Source: Spirochaetaceae bacterium (GTDB taxonomy: Bacteria > Spirochaetota > Spirochaetia > Treponematales > Treponemataceae). Taken from it: a stretch of 64,000 bases of DNA. Positions within the stretch are counted from its first letter, which is position 1. Each line of letters starts with the position of its first letter. The stretch spans positions 1 to 64,000 of the forward strand of contig JAGAAX010000014.1 of the NCBI GenBank assembly GCA_017614995.1, written 5' to 3'. Shown piece by piece: positions 183-62,771 of this stretch. Both the position numbers and the translations under genes were made by a program. Under the pieces are notes generated by a model. It had not been told where the DNA came from. It ran no database searches and saw only the letters and a list, made by a program, of their open reading frames with translations.

Positions 183-1355
183 TTATTTTTCAATTTCCTT
201 TACATAATCAATGAATTTCTTTAAAGACCAAATCTCACTTTGATATTGTTGTGGATATTTTGAAATATATTCTGTTGGTACAACAAGCACGACATTTTCG
301 GATTTCATTTCCTTTAATTGAGGACTTGAAATTCCCTGTTGTAATGTACATAGAAATTTCTGTTTTGAACGCAATCTGTCTGCTTCATTTAGAACCTGTC
401 GCCACCGGTCTTTGCAAGTTGTTTTGGCTGCTAATGAAATCAGTTTGTCTGTTGGAAAAGTCATGTCGTGATAAGATTTTTCTGAAGGAAAAATAAAATC
501 AGGTCTTTTGTTACCTTCTGTTACTGCCTGTGCTGTAAATTGTAAATTATTACCATTGAAAAGTGTTGTTAAATGATGTTCAAGACTTTTTCCTGCTCTG
601 CTTTTACGACGGTTCAAAACTTGGTTTGCCATTTCGATAAAAGCATCAACATCTTTGAAGCCTTTTGTTATTTTTTCTCCGTACCGCGCATGTTCAACAG
701 CTCGAAAAAGATTGTATTCTACTGCTGTCCAATCAAGTAACTTTTTATCTGGATTTGTTTGTATATATTCATTGTGATTGTAGACTGTATTTTGTATTGA
801 TTGTGCTGTAAGTGACATTTCTTCTGAGCTTGGAAAATCGACTTTCAAATTTTTTATAAAATCATTGATTGCTATTTCTTCTTTCGATTCAAGAGAAATT
901 ATTTTCTGCTCAATCAGTCTGTTTGTTTCTGTTGAGCTTAAACCGAAATAATCAAGAAAGGCGTTTATATCATCTTCCAAATTCAAAACATATGCTTTGT
1001 ATGAAGAATCTTTTAATTTTAGGATAACGACTAATGCACCTGTATACTCGGATTGTAAAAATGGGAAACCTCTTCCAAAATGAGTAATACGATATTCGTT
1101 TCTTGTTCCCTGTCCATAATACTTGAAACAAGCAGTTGTCTTGAAGTCATTTTGCCAGATAATCTCATTATTTGTTTCTTTATTCTGTCCTTTTATACCA
1201 GGTTCATTAAAAATCAAAGAAACAGAATTTTTAGGAATATAAATTCCGTCTTGATGTCCACCAGTTTCACCAGTATCATTTGCAGAGAGAAATTTGCAGA
1301 AAATTTTATCACTGTTGATTGCATCTGTTATTGCTAATGAAGAAAGTGTTTCCAA
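183..1355 (-). CDS. EcoRII-family type II restriction endonuclease
   Basis: The 390-aa product matches the EcoRII layout (about 400 aa): an N-terminal effector-DNA-binding domain (about 1-170, with a GTRNEYR...FGRGFPF block at 83-99) and a C-terminal PD-(D/E)xK nuclease domain (about 200-390). Visible catalytic elements are RPDF at 284-287 and AAKTTxxxRWRQ at 309-320. EcoRII enzymes cut at CCWGG and often need a second site as effector; that specificity here is inferred from the family. The start is TTG at 1355, preceded by AGGAG with 6-7 nt spacing, which lies across the stop of the methyltransferase. The gene follows the methyltransferase by 9 nt, so the two are co-transcribed, modification first. 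Confidence 0.88.
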   Translation of the reverse strand: METLSSLAITDAINSDKIFCKFLSANDTGETGGHQDGIYIPKNSVSLIFNEPGIKGQNKETNNEIIWQNDFKTTACFKYYGQGTRNEYRITHFGRGFPFLQSEYTGALVVILKLKDSSYKAYVLNLEDDINAFLDYFGLSSTETNRLIEQKIISLESKEEIAINDFIKNLKVDFPSSEEMSLTAQSIQNTVYNHNEYIQTNPDKKLLDWTAVEYNLFRAVEHARYGEKITKGFKDVDAFIEMANQVLNRRKSRAGKSLEHHLTTLFNGNNLQFTAQAVTEGNKRPDFIFPSEKSYHDMTFPTDKLISLAAKTTCKDRWRQVLNEADRLRSKQKFLCTLQQGISSPQLKEMKSENVVLVVPTEYISKYPQQYQSEIWSLKKFIDYVKEIEK

Positions 1356-1364
1356 GATATACTC

Positions 1365-2642
1365 CTATGCAGATTGTCTGCCGTTCTTTGTTTTTATTTC
1401 AACCTTTGGTTCGACAATATATGGTTTTATAAATTCTGCAACAGCATGGAACAATGGAACTACAACAGAATTTCCAAACTGTTTATATGCCCTTGTGTCT
1501 GAAACAGGAATGATGTAATCATCTGGATACCCCATAAGTCTTGCACATTCGCGAGGTGTCAATCTGCGAGGATTTTTGTTTTCACCTTGCCAAACCAAAA
1601 TCTCAGAACCGTCCTTGTAATATCTGGCTGAAAGTGTTCTTGCAATATCGTCTGGCTTTACCAAACCATATCCAAAACCATTGCCAATTGAACGGTGTTT
1701 TTGAGCATAAGCCTGTAAATATGTCCAAAGATTATCTGTTAAAGTGTATTTTTCCAAAACCTTGTTATTTTCAAAATCAAAATACTTATCTCCGTCTTGA
1801 ATCAATTTAGGTTCTGTGCCATCGGTTTTGTGCAATATACTTGAAAGTTTTATTATGCCTTTTTCAGGTAAAATCATATCATCAAAAGAAAAATCAACTT
1901 TATCTTTAAAGCCTACAATTACAATGCGCTCTCTGTGTTGAGGAACCCAACATTGACCGTCAATTATCTTGTAATCGCAAGTATAGCCTAAATCTTTTGT
2001 GAGAGTTTCCCAAATAACTTCAAAGGTATGTCCTTTATCGTGGGATTTCAAGTTTTTAACATTCTCCAAAACAAAGGCTTTGGGCTGTTTTTCTTTTATT
2101 ATGCGGGCAACATCAAAAAAAAGCGTTCCCTGAGTTTTATCTTCAAAGCCTGTTGGTCTTCCTAAAGATTTCTTTTTTGAGACTCCTGCAATAGAAAACG
2201 GCTGACAAGGGAAACCTGCGAGTAAAACGTCATGGTCTGGAATATCTGAAGCATTTACTTTTGTAATATCTCCGTTTATCGGGTGTTCTGACGGATAATT
2301 ATTGCTGTATGTTTTCTGTGCATATTCGTCCCATTCAGAAGTATAAAGACATTTTCCACCAGCTTGCTCAAATCCCTTGCGTATACCGCCGATTCCTGCG
2401 AATAAATCTATAAATGTAAAATCACCTTGCTTTTCATCATTTTCTTTTGCAGAAATTTTCCTTGTAAGCATATTGAAAAGTCTGTCTGCAATGAATGACT
2501 TGGGTTCAACAGATCCGTTTATCCAACGATGTATGGTGCTTTGATTTACTTGAAATTCTGTAGCAATATCTGCAATTGTATAAAATCGTGTTACTTGTTC
2601 TAACAATTCTGATACAGAGCTTTGGATAAAATTCTCGGACAT
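1365..2642 (-). CDS. DNA (cytosine-5) methyltransferase, Dcm/M.EcoRII type
   Basis: The 425-aa C5-methyltransferase protects the site cut by the adjacent endonuclease. Motif I DLFAGIGG is at 79-86, motif IV GFPCQPFS with the catalytic Cys at about 146, motif VI LENVKNL at 192-198, motif VIII QHRERI at 235-240, and motifs IX and X near the C-terminus. A helix-turn-helix occupies about 21-45 (IADIATEF...STIHRW); in M.EcoRII a comparable N-terminal extension represses its own gene, so autoregulation is plausible. I chose ATG 2642 because AGAGGT precedes it by about 5 nt. The in-frame TTG at 2681 would add 13 residues with no good ribosome site. Confidence 0.93.
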   Translation of the reverse strand: MSENFIQSSVSELLEQVTRFYTIADIATEFQVNQSTIHRWINGSVEPKSFIADRLFNMLTRKISAKENDEKQGDFTFIDLFAGIGGIRKGFEQAGGKCLYTSEWDEYAQKTYSNNYPSEHPINGDITKVNASDIPDHDVLLAGFPCQPFSIAGVSKKKSLGRPTGFEDKTQGTLFFDVARIIKEKQPKAFVLENVKNLKSHDKGHTFEVIWETLTKDLGYTCDYKIIDGQCWVPQHRERIVIVGFKDKVDFSFDDMILPEKGIIKLSSILHKTDGTEPKLIQDGDKYFDFENNKVLEKYTLTDNLWTYLQAYAQKHRSIGNGFGYGLVKPDDIARTLSARYYKDGSEILVWQGENKNPRRLTPRECARLMGYPDDYIIPVSDTRAYKQFGNSVVVPLFHAVAEFIKPYIVEPKVEIKTKNGRQSA

Positions 2643-2801
2643 GTAAACCTCTAAAATGGGATTTCTAATTGCATTATGCAAAACTTATTCCCCATTGTCA
2701 ACGTTCTGTGACGTACCCGAAAGCATATGTACATAAAGACAGGGTGAACTTCCGCAGATCTGTAAATATTGTGAAATCAACCAAGTATATAGGTTAGTCC
2801 G

Positions 2802-51360: not shown

Positions 51361-51423
51361 TTCGTCTGTCAAGAACAAATTTGTAATTTTGTTCTTGACA
51401 GACGAATATTTTGAAAATATCAT
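51361..51423 (+). promoter_or_regulatory. Long inverted repeat and promoter of ATPase 1, predicted leaderless
   Basis: A perfect 19-bp inverted repeat, TTCGTCTGTCAAGAACAAA (51361-51379) with its complement at 51388-51406, loop of eight. The right arm contains the -35 TTGACA (51395-51400); then a 17-nt spacer and TATCAT (51418-51423). ATG 51431 follows seven bases later with no Shine-Dalgarno. It looks like an operator. Confidence 0.8.
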
Positions 51424-51430
51424 ATAAAAC

Positions 51431-52657
51431 ATGGATATTTCAGAGACACTTTTAGAAGCAATAGAGTCCTGCAAGACGGTAATGGAACGAAAACTTTCAG
51501 GTATGCCCAAGCGGATTCGTCTTTGGACAACAGAATATACCTCAAAAAACAAACTGCCAAAGAACATGATTCTTACAGGTCTAAGGGGAATCGGAAAATC
51601 AACTTTTCTATTGCATTATGCAAAACAGAGCAGTAAAAAGATTCTCTATTTTTCTGCAGATAACCCTCGGATGGCAGCCTTCAATATTTATGATTTTGTA
51701 GCTGCAGTTTTTATGCAGGGATACGAAGGCGTAATAATTGATGAGGTTCATTTTGCCCGAAACTGGAGCGCACATCTAAAATCTTTGTATGATGATTTTC
51801 CTGACCGTTATGTATGGGCAAGTGATTCTTCGGCTCTGATTTTACGGAACGGAACTGCCGACCTTTCGAGGCGTTATGTTTTTGTTCACATGCCGGTTAT
51901 GTCATTCCGCGAGTTTTTGTTTATTGAAACTGGAAATGTTTACAGCACAATAAACCCATTTGAGCTAAAAGAAAGCGTTTCGCTTCCTGTAAAACCCGAT
52001 GCAAACTTTCTAAATTTGTTTGAACAATACAAAGCTCATGGAACCCGCCCTTTTTATACAGAAGGTGATTACGAACAGCGAAGTCTTTCAGTTCTTGAAA
52101 AATCACTCAATTCCGATGTTCCGTTCTTTGTTCCTCAGATTAGTGATGATAACATAAGGCTTATGGCTGCGGTTGTTGGCACCCTTTCTATGTCTTCAAT
52201 TCCACGTCTTCAGGTACGCTCCTTGTGTGCAGACTGGAATGTAAGTGCCGACAAACTTTATCAGCTTCTGGAAGTAATGGAAGCTGTCGGTGTTGTTCGC
52301 ATTATTCGTTTTCCAAATGATACAAAAGCAAAAAGTGCAGGGGCAAAACTCTTTTTTGCAGATCCGTGTCTGTATTCTGTTTTACATGGAAACCCAGGAA
52401 ATATGCGAGAAGCTTTTGTTACGGTTTTACTGCAGGAAGCAGGTTATACAGTAAATGCCAGCAAGGTAGAAACCGACGGTGATTTTGTAATTTCAAAAAA
52501 TATCGGTGGCTTAAATTTAGGAACTTCTCCAAAAATAAAAATCGAAGTTGGCGGCAAAGACAAAGTCCTAAAAAATTCCGACTGGGTAATCCGCGACAAT
52601 TCAGATTACCCTAGTGGAAAAGCAATTCCTCTGTGGCTTCTTGCAATGGGATGGTAG
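51431..52657 (+). CDS. AAA+ ATPase with nuclease-like C-terminus (ATPase 1)
   Basis: The 408-aa protein has a P-loop ATPase domain (Walker A GLRGIGKST at 50-58; Walker B GVIIDEVHF at 100-108) of the AAA_14-like group, a helical/winged-helix middle, and a C-terminal segment (about 340-400) of DUF4143-like shape, with VISKN...KIKIEVGGK resembling the strand-acid-x-K part of PD-(D/E)xK nucleases. The function is unknown. It is monocistronic under a palindrome-overlapped promoter, next to two other ATPases of the same general type. Confidence 0.72.
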   Translation: MDISETLLEAIESCKTVMERKLSGMPKRIRLWTTEYTSKNKLPKNMILTGLRGIGKSTFLLHYAKQSSKKILYFSADNPRMAAFNIYDFVAAVFMQGYEGVIIDEVHFARNWSAHLKSLYDDFPDRYVWASDSSALILRNGTADLSRRYVFVHMPVMSFREFLFIETGNVYSTINPFELKESVSLPVKPDANFLNLFEQYKAHGTRPFYTEGDYEQRSLSVLEKSLNSDVPFFVPQISDDNIRLMAAVVGTLSMSSIPRLQVRSLCADWNVSADKLYQLLEVMEAVGVVRIIRFPNDTKAKSAGAKLFFADPCLYSVLHGNPGNMREAFVTVLLQEAGYTVNASKVETDGDFVISKNIGGLNLGTSPKIKIEVGGKDKVLKNSDWVIRDNSDYPSGKAIPLWLLAMGW

Positions 52658-53178
52658 AAGTTTTTTTCAAGTTCATCTTGGCTTATTATACATTCATTAT
52701 AAAATACTGGATTCTCACTGTTTAGAATTAGAAGAAAAAGCAAAAAAAAGATATTCAGACGTTGATATCAAGTCTGTTTGCTTTTAATCTGTTTGTCAAA
52801 ATACCCGAATCTTCCAAAAAATCTTTGTGAAAAATTCGAACCTTTTCTTTGTTTATTAGCAAGTCTGAATAAAGATATTTTTGATAAAGACTCCGAAACT
52901 GTTGTTCACTTGCGTTATACAAAGTTTTTATTGAATTCTGAGCTATTTCTATTGTCTTAAAAGTCAGGTTTTCAGTGTTTTTTCAATATGATGAATCTTT
53001 GATAAAACTTGAATTTGTTGTTTACCTTTACTGAACAATTCCTCACAAAGGTTTCAGTTCGCTCGAATATCTGCTGGATTTACCAGTAACAAAAGATGGT
53101 GGTAAGGTTTCTACCGAAGAGCCCTATTTATACAACCAAAATAGGAGAGGGTGTTAGCAGGAGTGGTAGTACAACAAT
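52658..53178. other. Gene-poor stretch with apparent gene debris
   Basis: No intact gene. Short open stretches in different plus-strand frames occur around 52778-52960 and 52993-53155 (one contains SLEYLLDLPVTKDGGKVSTE), interrupted by stops and a frame change. They read like the remains of one gene, not recognised. This sits between two convergent ATPase genes. Confidence 0.5.
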
Positions 53179-54492
53179 TTACATATCGCTCATTGATAAA
53201 CCAAAAATTTCATGCTTATATTCCGGTAAGTTCTGCATGAAAACATGGGCTTTGGCTTGGAGCTTATCAAGTTTGAGTTTGTTAGTCTGTCGTTTTACTT
53301 CAAAAATTCTACAGGCTTTTTCATGTTCGTTAATTGTGATTATGTCAATTTCGTTTTCGGATTTTTTATCCCACCAGCCGCCGATTTTTGTGAAATTACC
53401 TTCTTCCTGAAGCTTTGCCGTAAAATAACGCTCCAGCGTTTTTCCGGTGAAGGTTTCGTAGTCTCGCTCAATGTACTGTTTTAGCATGTCATAATTTCCA
53501 AGCTCAATTAAATCCTGATGTGAAAAAAGGAATCTGAAATAAAAAAGCATGTATTCATCAACAATCTGCCAACGGGCATTACGGCTTTCTGTTTTAGAAA
53601 GCAACGGGCGGATTTGCTCTGTTATTCCAAAAACCTTTTGCAAATTCTGCAAATATGCTCCTGTATTTTTTTGAATTATTGAATCAATTTCGCTTTGGGA
53701 GGTATGACCAGTTGCAATTGCCTGAAGAATTGAAAAATAGATTCCGTAATCTTTGCCGATTTCGCTGATAAGAATGTCGCGTCCATCTGTTAAAAATGGG
53801 GATGCCATATTGCATACTGATTTTAGCATTTTATCTTTTGTGACGGCCCCTGCGTACATCAAGAGAAATATATATTTTGCAACACCACCGGAAAGCATAT
53901 ACAGGCATAAAAGATCTTCGGTTTCGTATTTGGTATTAAAATCTTTCAGGATTTCTTTTACTACAGATGGGATGAACGGCCTTAAGTGAATGGTGTGCGT
54001 CGTTCGTCCGAAAAGAGGCTGTTTGTCATCTTTAAAGATTTTTGTCATAAGTGAATATACGGAACCGCATACAATCAGATTGATTTTTGAAGAGGCTTTG
54101 TTACTGTCCCAGATGTTCTGCATCTGACTAAAAAAAGCTTTGTTTATATATTCAATATCCTGAAACTCATCAATTACAAGAATAAAATGATTTTCTTTGG
54201 AAAAAAGCATTATCTGCTCAAAAAGGTCAGACAGTGTTTCGACAGTTCCAAATATTTTTAGACCTATGCTTTCTTCCAGAGTTTTTTGCCACTGTGAGCA
54301 AAGTGCTTTTTCGGCACTGCGGGTTGTAAAAAGATATGCACTTTTTTTATCACTGATAAAATGCTTAAGAAGTTCTGTTTTGCCGATACGTCTGCGACCT
54401 GTAATAACTGTAAAACAGGCATTATTCTCTGATTGTTTTTCTATTTCTGAGAGAGCCTGTAATTCATTTTTTCTGTCGTAAAAGGTTTCCAT
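53179..54492 (-). CDS. ATPase_2/DUF234-type AAA ATPase with PD-(D/E)xK-like end (ATPase 2)
   Basis: The 437-aa protein has Walker A GRRRIGKTE (32-40), Walker B FILVIDEFQDI (103-113), sensor region VCGSVYSLM, and a winged-helix part (about 270-330). The C-terminus (about 385-420) has NEIDIITINEHEKACRIFEVKR, a D...E-x-K pattern typical of the DUF234 nuclease-like module in this family. ATG 54492 is chosen because AGAGGT lies 6 nt upstream. A 17-bp inverted repeat overlaps its promoter region. Confidence 0.78.
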   Translation of the reverse strand: METFYDRKNELQALSEIEKQSENNACFTVITGRRRIGKTELLKHFISDKKSAYLFTTRSAEKALCSQWQKTLEESIGLKIFGTVETLSDLFEQIMLFSKENHFILVIDEFQDIEYINKAFFSQMQNIWDSNKASSKINLIVCGSVYSLMTKIFKDDKQPLFGRTTHTIHLRPFIPSVVKEILKDFNTKYETEDLLCLYMLSGGVAKYIFLLMYAGAVTKDKMLKSVCNMASPFLTDGRDILISEIGKDYGIYFSILQAIATGHTSQSEIDSIIQKNTGAYLQNLQKVFGITEQIRPLLSKTESRNARWQIVDEYMLFYFRFLFSHQDLIELGNYDMLKQYIERDYETFTGKTLERYFTAKLQEEGNFTKIGGWWDKKSENEIDIITINEHEKACRIFEVKRQTNKLKLDKLQAKAHVFMQNLPEYKHEIFGLSMSDM

Positions 54493-54508
54493 GTCACGAC
54501 CTCTTGTA

Positions 54509-54546
54509 ATGTGTATTAATTTAATGGATATTAAGTTAATACACAT
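54509..54546 (-). promoter_or_regulatory. Inverted repeat operator of ATPase 2
   Basis: ATGTGTATTAATTTAAT (54509-54525) and ATTAAGTTAATACACAT (54530-54546) pair over 16 of 17 positions around GGAT. It overlaps TTGACT-N17-TTAATA read on the minus strand, upstream of ATG 54492. Confidence 0.75.
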
Positions 54547-54578
54547 TATATAGTCAAGCAATCAGAAAGTCAAATTAA

Positions 54579-54794
54579 AGAAAGAATGGAATAAATGTCC
54601 AAGAAAAATCGCGCGGGAATAAAATTATTGCTCTTATAGCAGATACTAATCAGATTTCCATACGAGAGCTTTCTGAAAAACTTGGGGTTACTTCAAAAAC
54701 AATTCAGCGTGATTTGGATTTGCTAAAAGAAAAGGATATCATCCGCCGTGTCGGTGCAGACAAAGGCGGACATTGGGAGATTCTGAAATTATAG
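54579..54794 (+). pseudogene. Remnant of a winged-helix C-terminus (AlbA_2/ATP-binding-type protein)
   Basis: An open frame without a start codon runs from 54579 to a TAG at 54792. It encodes about 71 residues with IALIADTNQISIRELSEKLG, VTSKTIQRDLDLLKEKD and IIRRVGADKGGHWEI. That is the C-terminal helix-turn-helix commonly seen at the end of AlbA_2 (Schlafen-like) ATP-binding proteins. The ATG at 54595 is in another frame and stops quickly. The rest of the gene is missing, so this is a truncated remnant. Confidence 0.65.
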
Positions 54795-54800
54795 AAGGAA

Positions 54801-54974
54801 ATGAAAAAGTCTCCTATGTTCAACAGCATAAAACTGCAACAACTTGTTGCAGAATTTGCACAGTCAGGAAAGGCGATTACAAATTACATAGAAAAACTTC
54901 CTCAAAAGCCGGCTCAGTTTGCAAACGAAATCACTTTTGCAAAAGATGTTCTGTTAGCAATTAACCATTGCTAA
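54801..54974 (+). CDS. Small ORF, 57 aa, unknown
   Basis: ATG 54801 to TAA 54974 encodes a 57-aa basic, helical peptide with a C-terminal Cys. AAGGA lies directly before the ATG, too close to be a good ribosome site. It may be part of the same debris as the pseudogene, or a small gene in the ATPase island. No family recognised. Confidence 0.35.
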   Translation: MKKSPMFNSIKLQQLVAEFAQSGKAITNYIEKLPQKPAQFANEITFAKDVLLAINHC

Positions 54975-55030
54975 TTGTCTTTCCATTCCTAGAAAATGCG
55001 TATATACTACATTTTAAGGAATAGAATGAT

Positions 55031-56293
55031 ATGATTATAAACAGAGAAAGCTACATAAATCAGCTGAAAGAAAAGAAACACAACGGAATGATAAAAATCA
55101 TAACAGGCTTAAGGCGGTCGGGAAAGTCGTTTCTGCTGTTTACGCTTTTTTATGAACGCCTTTTGGAAAGCGGGGTTGCAGATGACCATATCATAAAGAT
55201 TCCCCTTGATGACCTTGATTTTTATGATTACAGGGAAAAAATTGCTCTGTACAAATTCATAAAATCAAAAATTACAGATAGTTCGCTTTATTATGTTTTT
55301 CTTGATGAAATTCAGCTCGTTGACGGATTTGAGGAAGTCTTGAATTCGCTTCTACATATCAAGAATGTAGATGTTTATGTTACAGGCAGCAATTCAAGAT
55401 TTCTTGTTAAAGATGTGATAACGGAATTCCGCGGCCGTGGCGATGAAATCAGAGTGTATCCGCTTTCGTTTTCCGAGTTTTATTCAACATGTTCTGATGA
55501 TTTTTATACGGCGTGGGCAGAATACTGCACTTATGGAGGGCTTCCGCTTGCCGCTCAAATGAAAACGCACAAAGAGAAATCAGATTATCTTGCTTCGCTT
55601 TTTTCAAAAGTATATCTCACTGACGTTGTTGACAGGTACAGGATAAAAAACAAAAAGGAGTTTGAAGACATTTTGAATGTCATTTCATCTTCTGTGGGTT
55701 CTTTAACGAATCCTGCAAGAATAGAAAAAACTTTTAAGAGCAGGGAAAAGTCTGGCATTACAAACAAGACTATATCAGCATATCTTTCATACCTTGAGGA
55801 TGCTTTTTTGATTCAGAGTGTACAACGTTATGACATAAAAGGTAGAAAATACATCGGTGCAAACAAAAAATTCTATTTTACAGATTTGGGATTGCGGAAT
55901 GCACGGCTCAATTTCAGGCAGATTGAAGAAACTCACATTATGGAAAACATTATTTACAATGAACTTTGTATGCGCGGATATAATGTTGATGTGGGCGTCG
56001 TAGAATACAATACGAAAGACAAAAACGGCATTTCAAAAAAAATTCAGCTTGAGTGTGATTTTGTGGCAAATATGGGAACGAACCGCATTTACGTTCAGTC
56101 CGCATTTGATATAAGTGCAGACGAAAAGAAAAAACAGGAAACTGCTTCGCTGTTTCGAATTTCCGATATGTTCAAAAAAGTCGTAATTCAAAAACAAGAT
56201 GTCGTACCGCATTTTGATGAAGACGGCATTTTGATTTGTTCTCTAAAAGATTTTTTGCTCAAAACAGAAGAATTACAGAAGATGTTTGTGTAA
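55031..56293 (+). CDS. AAA_14/DUF4143 ATPase (ATPase 3)
   Basis: The 420-aa protein has Walker A GLRRSGKS (26-33), Walker B YYVFLDEIQ (87-95), sensor VTGSNS, arginine-rich region EFRGRGDEI, a winged-helix middle (about 205-275) and a C-terminal DUF4143 domain (about 280-400) with LECDFVAN...RIYVQSAF, a nuclease-like fold in this family. AAGGA lies about 12 nt before the ATG. TATACT upstream gives a leader of about 20 nt. The family is abundant in Treponema; function unknown. Confidence 0.88.
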   Translation: MIINRESYINQLKEKKHNGMIKIITGLRRSGKSFLLFTLFYERLLESGVADDHIIKIPLDDLDFYDYREKIALYKFIKSKITDSSLYYVFLDEIQLVDGFEEVLNSLLHIKNVDVYVTGSNSRFLVKDVITEFRGRGDEIRVYPLSFSEFYSTCSDDFYTAWAEYCTYGGLPLAAQMKTHKEKSDYLASLFSKVYLTDVVDRYRIKNKKEFEDILNVISSSVGSLTNPARIEKTFKSREKSGITNKTISAYLSYLEDAFLIQSVQRYDIKGRKYIGANKKFYFTDLGLRNARLNFRQIEETHIMENIIYNELCMRGYNVDVGVVEYNTKDKNGISKKIQLECDFVANMGTNRIYVQSAFDISADEKKKQETASLFRISDMFKKVVIQKQDVVPHFDEDGILICSLKDFLLKTEELQKMFV

Positions 56294-56390: not shown

Positions 56391-56396
56391 AGAGGC

Positions 56397-57692
56397 ATGA
56401 AAAAGAATCTTATTCCTGTAACCCTGCTGACCGGTTATCTCGGAGCGGGAAAAACAACCCTTTTGAACTATATTCTTAACAACCAGAAGGGCTATAAAGT
56501 AGCGGTTATCGTCAACGACATCGGCGAAGTAAATATTGACGCAAGCCTTATCGCAAAAGAAGCGAGCATTGTTGAAGAAGACAAAGATTCTGTCGTGCCT
56601 CTTCAGAACGGCTGTATTTGCTGCAACTTAAAGACCGACCTGATGAATCAAATCATCAAATTATGCGAAACACATAAATTTGACTATATCTTAATTGAAG
56701 CAAGCGGAATCTGCGAACCGATGCCGATTGCCCAATCAATTGAAACATTGAGCGGAATTACCGGCGACAGAAGCGTGCCTGCTGTGTGCAAGCTCGACAA
56801 CATTGTTGCAGTTGTTGATGCCCTGCGCCTTGTAGACGAATTTGCCGGCGGCAACAGTCTCTTGAAGAAAGACCTTGAAGAGACCGACATTGAAGCGCTT
56901 TTGATCCAGCAGATTGAATTCTGCAACACAATCTTGATTAACAAAACTGACCTTGTTACACCTGAACAGCTTGAGCTTGTTAAGAAAGTTGTACGCACTT
57001 TGCAGCCGTCTGCAAAAATGATTGAAACCCAGAAGGGTGTAGTTGACTTAAAAGAAGTGCTCGGCACAAACGCCTTTGACTTTGAAAAGGTTTATTCGAC
57101 TGCCGGCTGGATTAAAGAGCTTGAAGAGCACGACAAGCACGAGCACGAAGGCCATGACCATGATGAGCACGACCACGAACACCACCATGAGCATGAGGAA
57201 CACGAGCACCATCATCATGACCACGACCACGATGACGGCAAAGACCATTCACACTGCGACCATGAGCACGGCCACTGCTGCCACGATCATGGAGAAGGCC
57301 ACCAGCATGGTGACGAATTCGGCATCAGCACATTCGTTTATTATGTACGCAGACCTTTTGACCGCATGAAGCTTGAAAACTTTGCGTCAAACTGGCCGAA
57401 TTCGGTTATCCGCGCAAAGGGCATTGTCTGGTTTGCTGACGACAACGATGAAGCTTTTGTGCTTGAACAGGCTGGCAAACAGATTACAGCTTCTTATTCC
57501 GGCGACTGGATGGCAACCGCACCGAAAGGCCAGATTAAAAAAGCACTGGCAAGCGACCCTGAGTTTGCAAAGAACTGGGACGAAAAACTCGGCGACAGAA
57601 TGGTTAAGCTTGTATTTATTGGACGCAATATGGATAAATCAAAAATTATTGCCGCACTCGATGAATGCACTGTAGAGCCGAACATCAGATAA
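56397..57692 (+). CDS. CobW/COG0523 metal-chaperone GTPase
   Basis: The 431-aa GTPase has Walker A GYLGAGKTT (13-21), the metal-binding CICC (73-76), NKTD guanine specificity motif, and a C-terminal CobW_C domain (about 315-431). Between them a strikingly His/Asp/Glu-rich tract (about 245-305, some 60 residues, many HH/HDH repeats) should bind several metal ions. Such proteins insert Zn or other metals into client enzymes. ATG 56397 is chosen from the family N-terminus. The two lipoprotein genes follow. Confidence 0.92.
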   Translation: MKKNLIPVTLLTGYLGAGKTTLLNYILNNQKGYKVAVIVNDIGEVNIDASLIAKEASIVEEDKDSVVPLQNGCICCNLKTDLMNQIIKLCETHKFDYILIEASGICEPMPIAQSIETLSGITGDRSVPAVCKLDNIVAVVDALRLVDEFAGGNSLLKKDLEETDIEALLIQQIEFCNTILINKTDLVTPEQLELVKKVVRTLQPSAKMIETQKGVVDLKEVLGTNAFDFEKVYSTAGWIKELEEHDKHEHEGHDHDEHDHEHHHEHEEHEHHHHDHDHDDGKDHSHCDHEHGHCCHDHGEGHQHGDEFGISTFVYYVRRPFDRMKLENFASNWPNSVIRAKGIVWFADDNDEAFVLEQAGKQITASYSGDWMATAPKGQIKKALASDPEFAKNWDEKLGDRMVKLVFIGRNMDKSKIIAALDECTVEPNIR

Positions 57693-60902: not shown

Positions 60903-60944
60903 AAGGAGAAAAGAACCTGCTTGTTTAGAGGTTCTTTTCTCCTT
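60903..60944. terminator. Perfect 16-bp hairpin between convergent genes
   Basis: AAGGAGAAAAGAACCT (60903-60918) pairs perfectly with 60929-60944, loop of ten bases. No long T run; likely a shared terminator. Confidence 0.65.
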
Positions 60945-60950
60945 AAAGTT

Positions 60951-62771
60951 TTATTCATTCTTGGCGGCTTCCAGGAGTTTCCAGTATTCGCCTTTTTTGG
61001 CGAGAAGCTCGGAAGGAGTTCCGCTTTCTATAATACCTTTGCGGTCAACAACAAAAATGCGGTCGGCATTTGCTATAGTAGAAAGGCGGTGCGCAATTAC
61101 AAAAGAAGTTCTGCCCTTAAGCAGCGCCGCAATACCCTTCTGCACAAGCAGCTCGGTCTTTGTATCAATACTGGACGTTGCTTCATCAAGAATAAGAATC
61201 TTGGGCTTAGAAATCATTGTGCGGGCAAACGCAAGAAGCTGTCTTTGTCCGTTGCTGAGCTCGCCGCCGCGCGCCGTCAGTTTGGTGTCATATCCGTCTT
61301 TCAAAGAGTTTATAAAATCATCAGCATGAACAGACTTTGCTGCTTCAATTATTTCCTCTTCTGTAGCGTCAAGTTTTCCGTATTTGATGTTATCTCTTAT
61401 AGTGCCGGAAAAAATGTAATTGTCCTGAGTCATAATGCCCATCTGACTGCGCAAGTCTGCAAGTTTCATGTCACGCACATCAATTCCGTCTATAAGAATG
61501 TGCCCGCCCTGAATGTCGTAAAACCTTGAAATAAGATTTACAATCGTAGACTTGCCCGCCCCAGTCGGGCCAACAAGAGCGATTGTCTCGCCCGGCTTTA
61601 TGTGAAAGCTTACATCTTCAAGAATGTTGACAATCTTTGAGTTATCAAGCTCAGTAACATTGTTCGGGTTATTCGGGTTGCCTGCCGCATCATAGCGGAA
61701 CGTTACATGCTTGAACTCAACCTCGCCCTTTATGGCGTCTACAGCAACTGCATCTTTTTTGTCGGTTATTGTCGGCTTTGTGTCGAGAATCTCGAAAATG
61801 CGCTCGGCTCTAGAAACGCAGGTAACAACCTGATTGTAGAACTGGCTCAAGCCCTGAATCGGCTGCCAGAACATGCCGATGTAAGCGCTGAACGCAAGAA
61901 AAGTACCGATAGAAACGCTTTCAATGCCCATAACCTTGATGCCGATCCAGTACATGGCAAAAATGCAGAGACCCCACGAAAAGTCGATAATCGCAAAGTT
62001 TCCGTCTGCCCAGCGGCAGGCGTTTACAAAACTGTCGCGGTCTTCATCAGCAAGCTGCCTGAAAGTGCGGTTAGTTTCTTCTTCAGCAGAAAAACTCTGC
62101 ACAACTTTTATGCCGGAAAAGTCTTCGCTTATGAATGCGCACATATTCGAGCACTTCTTTGAGTTTATCTTCCAATATTTGTGGCTGTTCCGCGAAACTA
62201 CAGCGACACCAACAATAAGAATCGGCACACCGACAAGCGCGGCACATGCAAGCTGCGCGTTTTTCGAGAACATAATCGCGATAACAGCAACAATCGTTAT
62301 AAAGTTTGGAATAAGGCTCGTGATTGTGTTCTCAAGCACATCTTTAAGCGAATTTACGTTGCCGACAATTCGGGCAAGAATCTTGCCGCTTGGTCTTGAG
62401 TCAAAAAACGCAAGGTCAAGCTTCTGAATATGCTCGTAAAGTTCCTGTCTTATTTCCTGAATAACATGATTAGTCAGCTTTGACATTATGAGCATTCTGA
62501 TTTTGATTGCGAGAACCATTACAAGGTTTAGCCCGACCGCAAATGCCATAAACATAAAAAAGCCTTTTATGTTCTTTACGGCAATGTATTTGTCTATTGC
62601 TGTCTCTACAAAAATCGGGTTTACAAGCGAAACAAACGTGCCGATTGCCATAAGTCCCATTACAATCAGAATCTTCCATTTATATTTGAGAAGATAAGAC
62701 AAAAGGCGCGTTATAGTCTTTATTTTTGGAACATCGCTTATCTGTTCGTCTTCTTTATATGAATTAGCCAT
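60951..62771 (-). CDS. ABC exporter subunit with consensus nucleotide site
   Basis: The 606-aa protein has a six-helix transmembrane domain (about 1-330) and a nucleotide-binding domain (about 345-606): Walker A GPTGAGKST, signature LSNGQRQ (degenerate LSGGQ), and Walker B ILILDEATSS with catalytic Glu intact. It is the partner of the overlapping upstream gene (8 nt overlap), together a heterodimeric exporter of lipids, drugs or peptides. Confidence 0.93.
   Translation of the reverse strand: MANSYKEDEQISDVPKIKTITRLLSYLLKYKWKILIVMGLMAIGTFVSLVNPIFVETAIDKYIAVKNIKGFFMFMAFAVGLNLVMVLAIKIRMLIMSKLTNHVIQEIRQELYEHIQKLDLAFFDSRPSGKILARIVGNVNSLKDVLENTITSLIPNFITIVAVIAIMFSKNAQLACAALVGVPILIVGVAVVSRNSHKYWKINSKKCSNMCAFISEDFSGIKVVQSFSAEEETNRTFRQLADEDRDSFVNACRWADGNFAIIDFSWGLCIFAMYWIGIKVMGIESVSIGTFLAFSAYIGMFWQPIQGLSQFYNQVVTCVSRAERIFEILDTKPTITDKKDAVAVDAIKGEVEFKHVTFRYDAAGNPNNPNNVTELDNSKIVNILEDVSFHIKPGETIALVGPTGAGKSTIVNLISRFYDIQGGHILIDGIDVRDMKLADLRSQMGIMTQDNYIFSGTIRDNIKYGKLDATEEEIIEAAKSVHADDFINSLKDGYDTKLTARGGELSNGQRQLLAFARTMISKPKILILDEATSSIDTKTELLVQKGIAALLKGRTSFVIAHRLSTIANADRIFVVDRKGIIESGTPSELLAKKGEYWKLLEAAKNE

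Follow-up and report, generated by a model that had tools for sequence, protein, structure and literature searches.

Private palindromes and a residue-to-base code suggest that PDC-S01-type ATPase-nucleases read their own promoters

The window, a stretch of 64,000 nt from contig JAGAAX010000014.1 of a Spirochaetaceae bacterium, contains three ATPase genes, P0001 to P0003 (Table 1). Their reading frames lie where the initial annotation had placed them, and its family assignments were borne out by Pfam: P0001 matches AAA_14 (1.8e-25), P0002 matches ATPase_2 (1.8e-20) and DUF234 (1.7e-14), and P0003 matches AAA_14 (2.4e-30) and DUF4143 (5.3e-21). Among the PADLOC profiles, PDC-S01 is matched strongly by P0003 (1.5e-115) and weakly by P0001 (2.3e-19), PDC-S27 strongly by P0002 (1.6e-46). 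PDC-S01 (AAA_14/DUF4143) and PDC-S27 (ATPase_2/DUF234) likewise consist of an ATPase and a domain of the PD-(D/E)xK superfamily; PDC-S01 is described as ranking fourth in frequency among the defence systems of prokaryotes, and for most PDCs experimental validation is pending (NAR 2026, doi 10.1093/nar/gkag225). In the literature searched, where DUF4143 is scarcely mentioned, we found neither private operators nor self-recognition described for PDC-S01 or PDC-S27.

Table 1. The three ATPase genes of the window and the features at their promoters.
Feature	Position	Strand	Description
P0001	51431..52657	+	AAA_14 ATPase, 408 aa; winged-helix-like region, C-terminus D...EVGGK
P0002	53179..54492	-	ATPase_2 + DUF234, 437 aa; intact EID...EVK motif
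P0003	55031..56293	+	AAA_14 + DUF4143, 420 aa; QSA in place of the nuclease ExK
HTH gene remnant	54620..54795 (about)	+	between P0002 and P0003; HTH_DeoR 1.3e-9
P0001 operator candidate	51361..51406	.	near-perfect palindrome upstream of P0001, 22-nt arms, 95% complementary
P0001 -35 box	51395..51400	+	TTGACA, within the right arm of the palindrome; 17-bp spacer to TATCAT
P0001 -10 box	51418..51423	+	TATCAT, 7 nt before ATG, near-leaderless
P0002 operator candidate	54507..54548	.	palindrome upstream of P0002, over the -10 region, 19-nt arms, 95% complementary
Putative P0002 promoter	54529..54557	-	TTGACT - 17 bp - TTAATA; the centre of the palindrome falls on the -10 box
Quasi-palindrome upstream of P0003	54985..55022 (54985-54998 / 55010-55022)	.	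weak, bulged; ATTCCTAGAAAATG / CATTTTAAGGAAT

A nuclease-like C-terminus had been proposed for each of the three ATPases. This holds for P0002, which carries the D...ExK motif of PD-(D/E)xK enzymes (EIDIITINEHEKACRIFEVK); EID...EVK is found in 13 of 14 members of its family, the 14th reading ...EID...ECK. It does not hold for P0003, in which the D is kept but ExK is lost (CDFVANMGTNRIYVQSA; CDF...YVQSA), and most relatives in its clade show IQSA at the ExK position. The C-terminal sequence of P0001 is D...IEVGGK, within a predicted model of low confidence (pLDDT 53.7, below 40 at the C-terminus).

The accessory character ascribed to the three genes agrees with the patchy distribution of their relatives among genomes: P0001-like proteins (E<=1e-20) occur in 32 of 197 genomes, relatives of P0002 (1e-40) in 12 of 149 and those of P0003 (1e-60) in 32 of 100, and a search of viral contigs for relatives of P0001 and P0002 found none. 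They do not form one system but are three separate members of superfamilies with about 25 AAA_14 genes in the host genome, besides unrelated AAA proteins. The gene debris noted between the ATPases includes a genuine HTH remnant, whose Schlafen/AlbA_2 origin is no more than putative. No small gene resembling the antitoxin of a type II toxin-antitoxin module was noticed beside the window genes on informal inspection. Elsewhere in the window, an EcoRII-type restriction endonuclease (183-2681, minus strand; EcoRII-C 7.8e-64, EcoRII-N 1.3e-24) adjoins a C5 cytosine methylase (9.6e-89), the two making up a type II restriction-modification pair. A CobW-type GTPase with a His/Asp-rich insert (56394-57692, plus strand) lies directly 3' of P0003.

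The palindromes described across the promoters of P0001 and P0002 are real and of a kind rare in control genes. A scan of the 64 kb with a loop of <=14 and a score of >=14 yielded three inverted repeats, namely that of P0001, which ranks first in the window, that of P0002, and one at 60903-60944. The last is a strong terminator-like repeat (AAGGAGAAAAGAACC...GGTTCTTTTCTCCTT) adjoining the gene at 60951-62771. For comparison, 301 control promoters were drawn from 20 stretches of the host genome and scored without gaps over a slightly wider stretch than in the AAA_14 scan; 5/301 scored at least 14 and 9/301 at least 13, one of these lying before a GntR-like regulator. There is no second full copy of the P0001 palindrome in its genome, the longest other match being 23 bp. 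In L196, which is 62% identical to P0001, the inner AAGAACAAA is kept and the outer arms are different yet still paired. The quasi-palindrome of P0003 is not significant by itself; its clade relatives L380, L381 and L394 possess perfect arms of 20 nt. L380 and L381 have the inner 17 bp in common and differ in the outermost triplet alone (CCC/GGG vs TTT/AAA), and their proteins differ in the hairpin that precedes EIDF as well as in 80 other places.

Operator-like control of these promoters, as suggested earlier, found support and is far more general than had been seen. Outside the clade marked by YR...LxxWK, 10 of 16 AAA_14 genes of the host genome (including P0002) have an inverted repeat scoring at least 13 between -125 and -12, each of a different sequence. 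One PRQ-type AAA_14/DUF4143 gene (L016, G000:C52:72321-73454), located 8 kb past the end of the window, has its own palindrome with imperfect arms of 22 nt and a promoter TTGAAA-17-TACAAT 6 nt before the ATG. Genes of the same genus follow the same pattern, and the relatives L006 and L077 differ in their arms with pairing kept. In the P0002/DUF234 family the palindromes are made of TTAATGGCCATTAA-type units, one being 73 bp long. When we asked whether the operators of paralogues within a genome are more different than expected, the difference was -0.05 +/- 0.04 over 10 pairs only.

The YR...LxxWK clade is organised in another way. Palindromes occur in 3 of its 34 members; direct repeats reach a score of 13 in 18/32, compared with 0.2% of shuffles and 3/246 control genes. 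They comprise two or three copies with a period of 32-33 bp in 19 of the 21 strong cases. The clade had initially served us as a negative control for palindromes, before its direct repeats were found. The loci L017, L018, L020, L428 and others show private iteron-like repeats upstream of the start codon.

The sites were analysed most closely in the highest-scoring DUF4143 clade, named PRQ after its GPRQxGKT motif, with relatives from public genomes, viral contigs and the phylum. The genomes sampled belong mainly to a single phylum, to which 80 public loci from many phyla were added, and start codons were picked by their distance to the P-loop. Palindromes with a score of at least 12 were found in 97/256 non-redundant genes and in 0/2560 dinucleotide shuffles; about half of the PRQ genes are without a strong palindrome under the start choice used. 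In 63 genes the centre was fixed from the inner 24 bp alone, so as to avoid selection bias, and the outer offsets were then read. Offsets 13-19 are paired in 84, 83, 81, 76, 71, 62 and 56% of these genes (shuffles about 25%), and pairing is back to 25-33% from offset 21. Since outer pairing ends near offset 20, the PRQ site is about 39 bp long. Its centre is odd in 52/63, and pair types are mixed while symmetry is held. In about 15 genes a -35 TTGA lies at right-arm offset 3-4 with a -10 box 16-18 bp further on, mostly 6 nt before the ATG.

Some palindromes lie near the start codon or span it, as would suit a 5' leader that forms an RNA hairpin or attenuator. However, mismatches compatible with G-U pairing are not in excess (G.T 68 vs A.C 66), in the clearest promoters transcription starts downstream of the palindrome, and bases on both arms are predicted by protein residues (see below). 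The hairpin was rejected for want of a wobble bias, and we regard it as very improbable.

Covariation between protein columns and operator offsets was evaluated by mutual information with average-product correction (APC) in 103 PRQ genes with odd-centred palindromes, residues being numbered as in L013. The top pairs are 312-16, 219-6, 218-7, 217-5 and 219-5, followed by 208-8, with 311-15 within the first eight. The z-scores amount to 21 for K312 with offset 16, 16 for T219-6, 15 for S218-7 and 14 for S217-5, compared with a maximum of 5.2 for flanking DNA of the same promoters; the maximum APC was 0.477 (0.156 upon permutation). The resulting rules are chemically sensible. Asparagine at 312 goes with T at offset 16 in 48/56 cases, lysine with C in 26/26 and aspartate with G in 21/30; H218 goes with C in 43/48 and D217 with C in 30/30. 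Predicted from residue 312 with training proteins of less than 45% identity, the base at offset 16 was right in 69%, as opposed to 15% for the commonest base, while residue 208 did not beat the baseline in cross-validation. Offset 16 was predicted correctly in 10/10 half-sites of five held-out plasmid genes that have a palindrome; in the Runella rosea gene this palindrome is perfect over 39 bp. A sixth, L436 from a Wolbachia plasmid, showed no clear site. The plasmids of two PRQ-type genes, L431 (Runella plasmid pSP2_2) and L436 (pWALBA2), carry further genes of note, one having CRISPR-associated and WYL-domain genes nearby, the other a RelE/ParE toxin gene.

Independent residue switches were moreover scored against base switches on a tree that was computed with the code columns left out. 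Phylogenetically independent pairs stand at about 8:0 for 312N/T16, about 8:0 for 312KH/C16 and about 7:0 for 219 PV/T6, with too few of them for residue 311. Close pairs switch together, for instance L013 and L272 with K to N at 312 and a symmetric change at offset 16. Covariation of protein with operator, the mark of an autoregulatory DNA-binding protein, was measured in the PRQ clade and is present there. Because their residues covary with operator bases, it is strongly supported at the sequence level that PRQ proteins read their own promoters. By analogy to this related clade the same may apply to P0001, P0002 and P0003, since their sites are of the same type and their domains follow a related order, and by analogy also to the PDC-S27 proteins.

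Quasi-palindrome correction can make the arms of a repeat match. Chance or symmetrisation by template-switching mutation, with no recognition by a protein, is nevertheless hardly credible in view of the fixed length of ~39 bp with a sharp end, the specificity for gene families and a residue-to-base code whose predictions carry over to held-out genes.

The structure of the PRQ protein L154 (391 aa) was predicted with a pLDDT of 94.6. The model comprises an ATPase, a winged helix (207-214, 218-230, strand 234-237) and a nuclease-like domain of helix-strand-strand-strand-helix order with E285, D317, E330 and K332. Residue 218 starts the helix 218-230, and 310-314 are part of a hairpin turn. The best fold matches are the archaeal ATPase_2 structures 2qen (PABY2304) and 2fna (SSO1545) with Z 15-16 over 243 residues; they differ in that the alignment ends at about residue 267, leaving the nuclease domain outside. 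Homologues of the nuclease domain are absent from the fold list, which carries no meaning because the ATPase part fills it. The NBD-HD-WHD arrangement of STAND NTPases (NLR resistosomes, CED-4, Avs5) is recovered in the model, with matches to NLRs and CED-4 at Z 12-13 over about 230-245 residues. In contrast to these, no separate sensor repeat region or sensor superstructure is evident within the 391-aa protein, and the WHD itself appears to read DNA.

The PD-(D/E)xK residues are present in nearly all PRQ genes with palindromes (E285 in 103/103, D317 in 102/103, E330 in 96/103, K332 in 97/103). As they are near-invariant, we would say that the PRQ nuclease does something beyond reading the operator. 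The same constancy speaks against ordinary self-regulating transcription factors with no immune role, whose nuclease-like domain would be a DNA-binding module, and so do the patchy, multi-copy, accessory distribution and the matches to defence-candidate profiles. Such factors would account for bases being read by two domains and for an ExK loss of the P0003 type, and 8bob, a STAND-type regulator of the maltose system, is among the Foldseek matches; we give them a small chance of being the whole explanation.

The palindrome could instead be a cleavage target, a private site which a site-specific endonuclease cuts or nicks, for instance to ensure its spread or retention or in order to break the promoter when activated. 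The near-invariant residues and the position of the base-reading residues 311-312, which sit 5-6 residues before the catalytic D317, would fit. On the other hand the P0003 clade keeps perfect palindromes though ExK is lost, palindromes are also kept by a few PRQ proteins that have Q330 or lack K332, and the sites overlap promoter elements in an operator-like manner, so that this reading appears rather improbable. A combined version, in which the endonuclease has its own promoter as a private 39-bp site, acts as a repressor while parked and cuts the site or its relatives once activated, is unlikely too, if somewhat less so; if true, each copy would be an immune or selfish unit addressed to itself and insulated from the others.

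We consider it likely that the proteins are private-site-reading, STAND-like ATPase-nucleases that repress themselves and remain parked until triggered. Each would join a PD-(D/E)xK-type domain to an ATPase of STAND-like build, with NBD, helical domain and winged helix, and would recognise a repeated site that is private to it and lies at the promoter of its gene. In the PRQ clade two protomers are predicted to read one 39-bp palindrome, the recognition helix of the winged helix (217-219 of L013) contacting offsets 5-7 and the hairpin just before the catalytic Asp (311-312) offsets 14-16, which lie roughly a helical turn farther from the centre. In the YR...LxxWK clade the sites would instead be arranged head to tail at intervals of 32-33 bp. 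By occupying the -35 or -10 region the protein would shut down its own gene, and P0001 and P0002 may do likewise through their own palindromes. Because the sites overlap promoter elements, the ATPase-nucleases probably repress themselves; since operator positions vary, activation rather than repression may occur at some promoters. A small amount of the protein, an immune or toxic nuclease kept silent, would thereby be held on its promoter; once a trigger switches the ATPase, it would be released and its gene derepressed.

Plasmid Rep initiators have iterons and inverted-repeat operators, and likewise combine direct and inverted half-site repeats at the own gene within one family. They differ from the genes described here, which are chromosomal single genes with a nuclease domain and no evidence of an origin. 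Immune genes under the control of a repressor are likewise known, for example with RptR (PMC12255303) and CapK/CapS (PMC13373217), where the regulator is a separate protein, whereas the reading elements would here be located in the effector itself. A role of the ATPase-nucleases in antiphage defence is plausible given their status as PADLOC candidates, their patchy distribution and the STAND-like fold.

Taken together, our data predict an activity for the PDC-S01 family, namely sequence-specific recognition of the own promoter, with a decipherable residue-to-base code that would be split between the winged helix and, unexpectedly, a hairpin of the nuclease domain. Each copy gains a predicted binding site, which suggests a way in which tens of paralogues per genome could be controlled separately, and the function of the family becomes directly testable.
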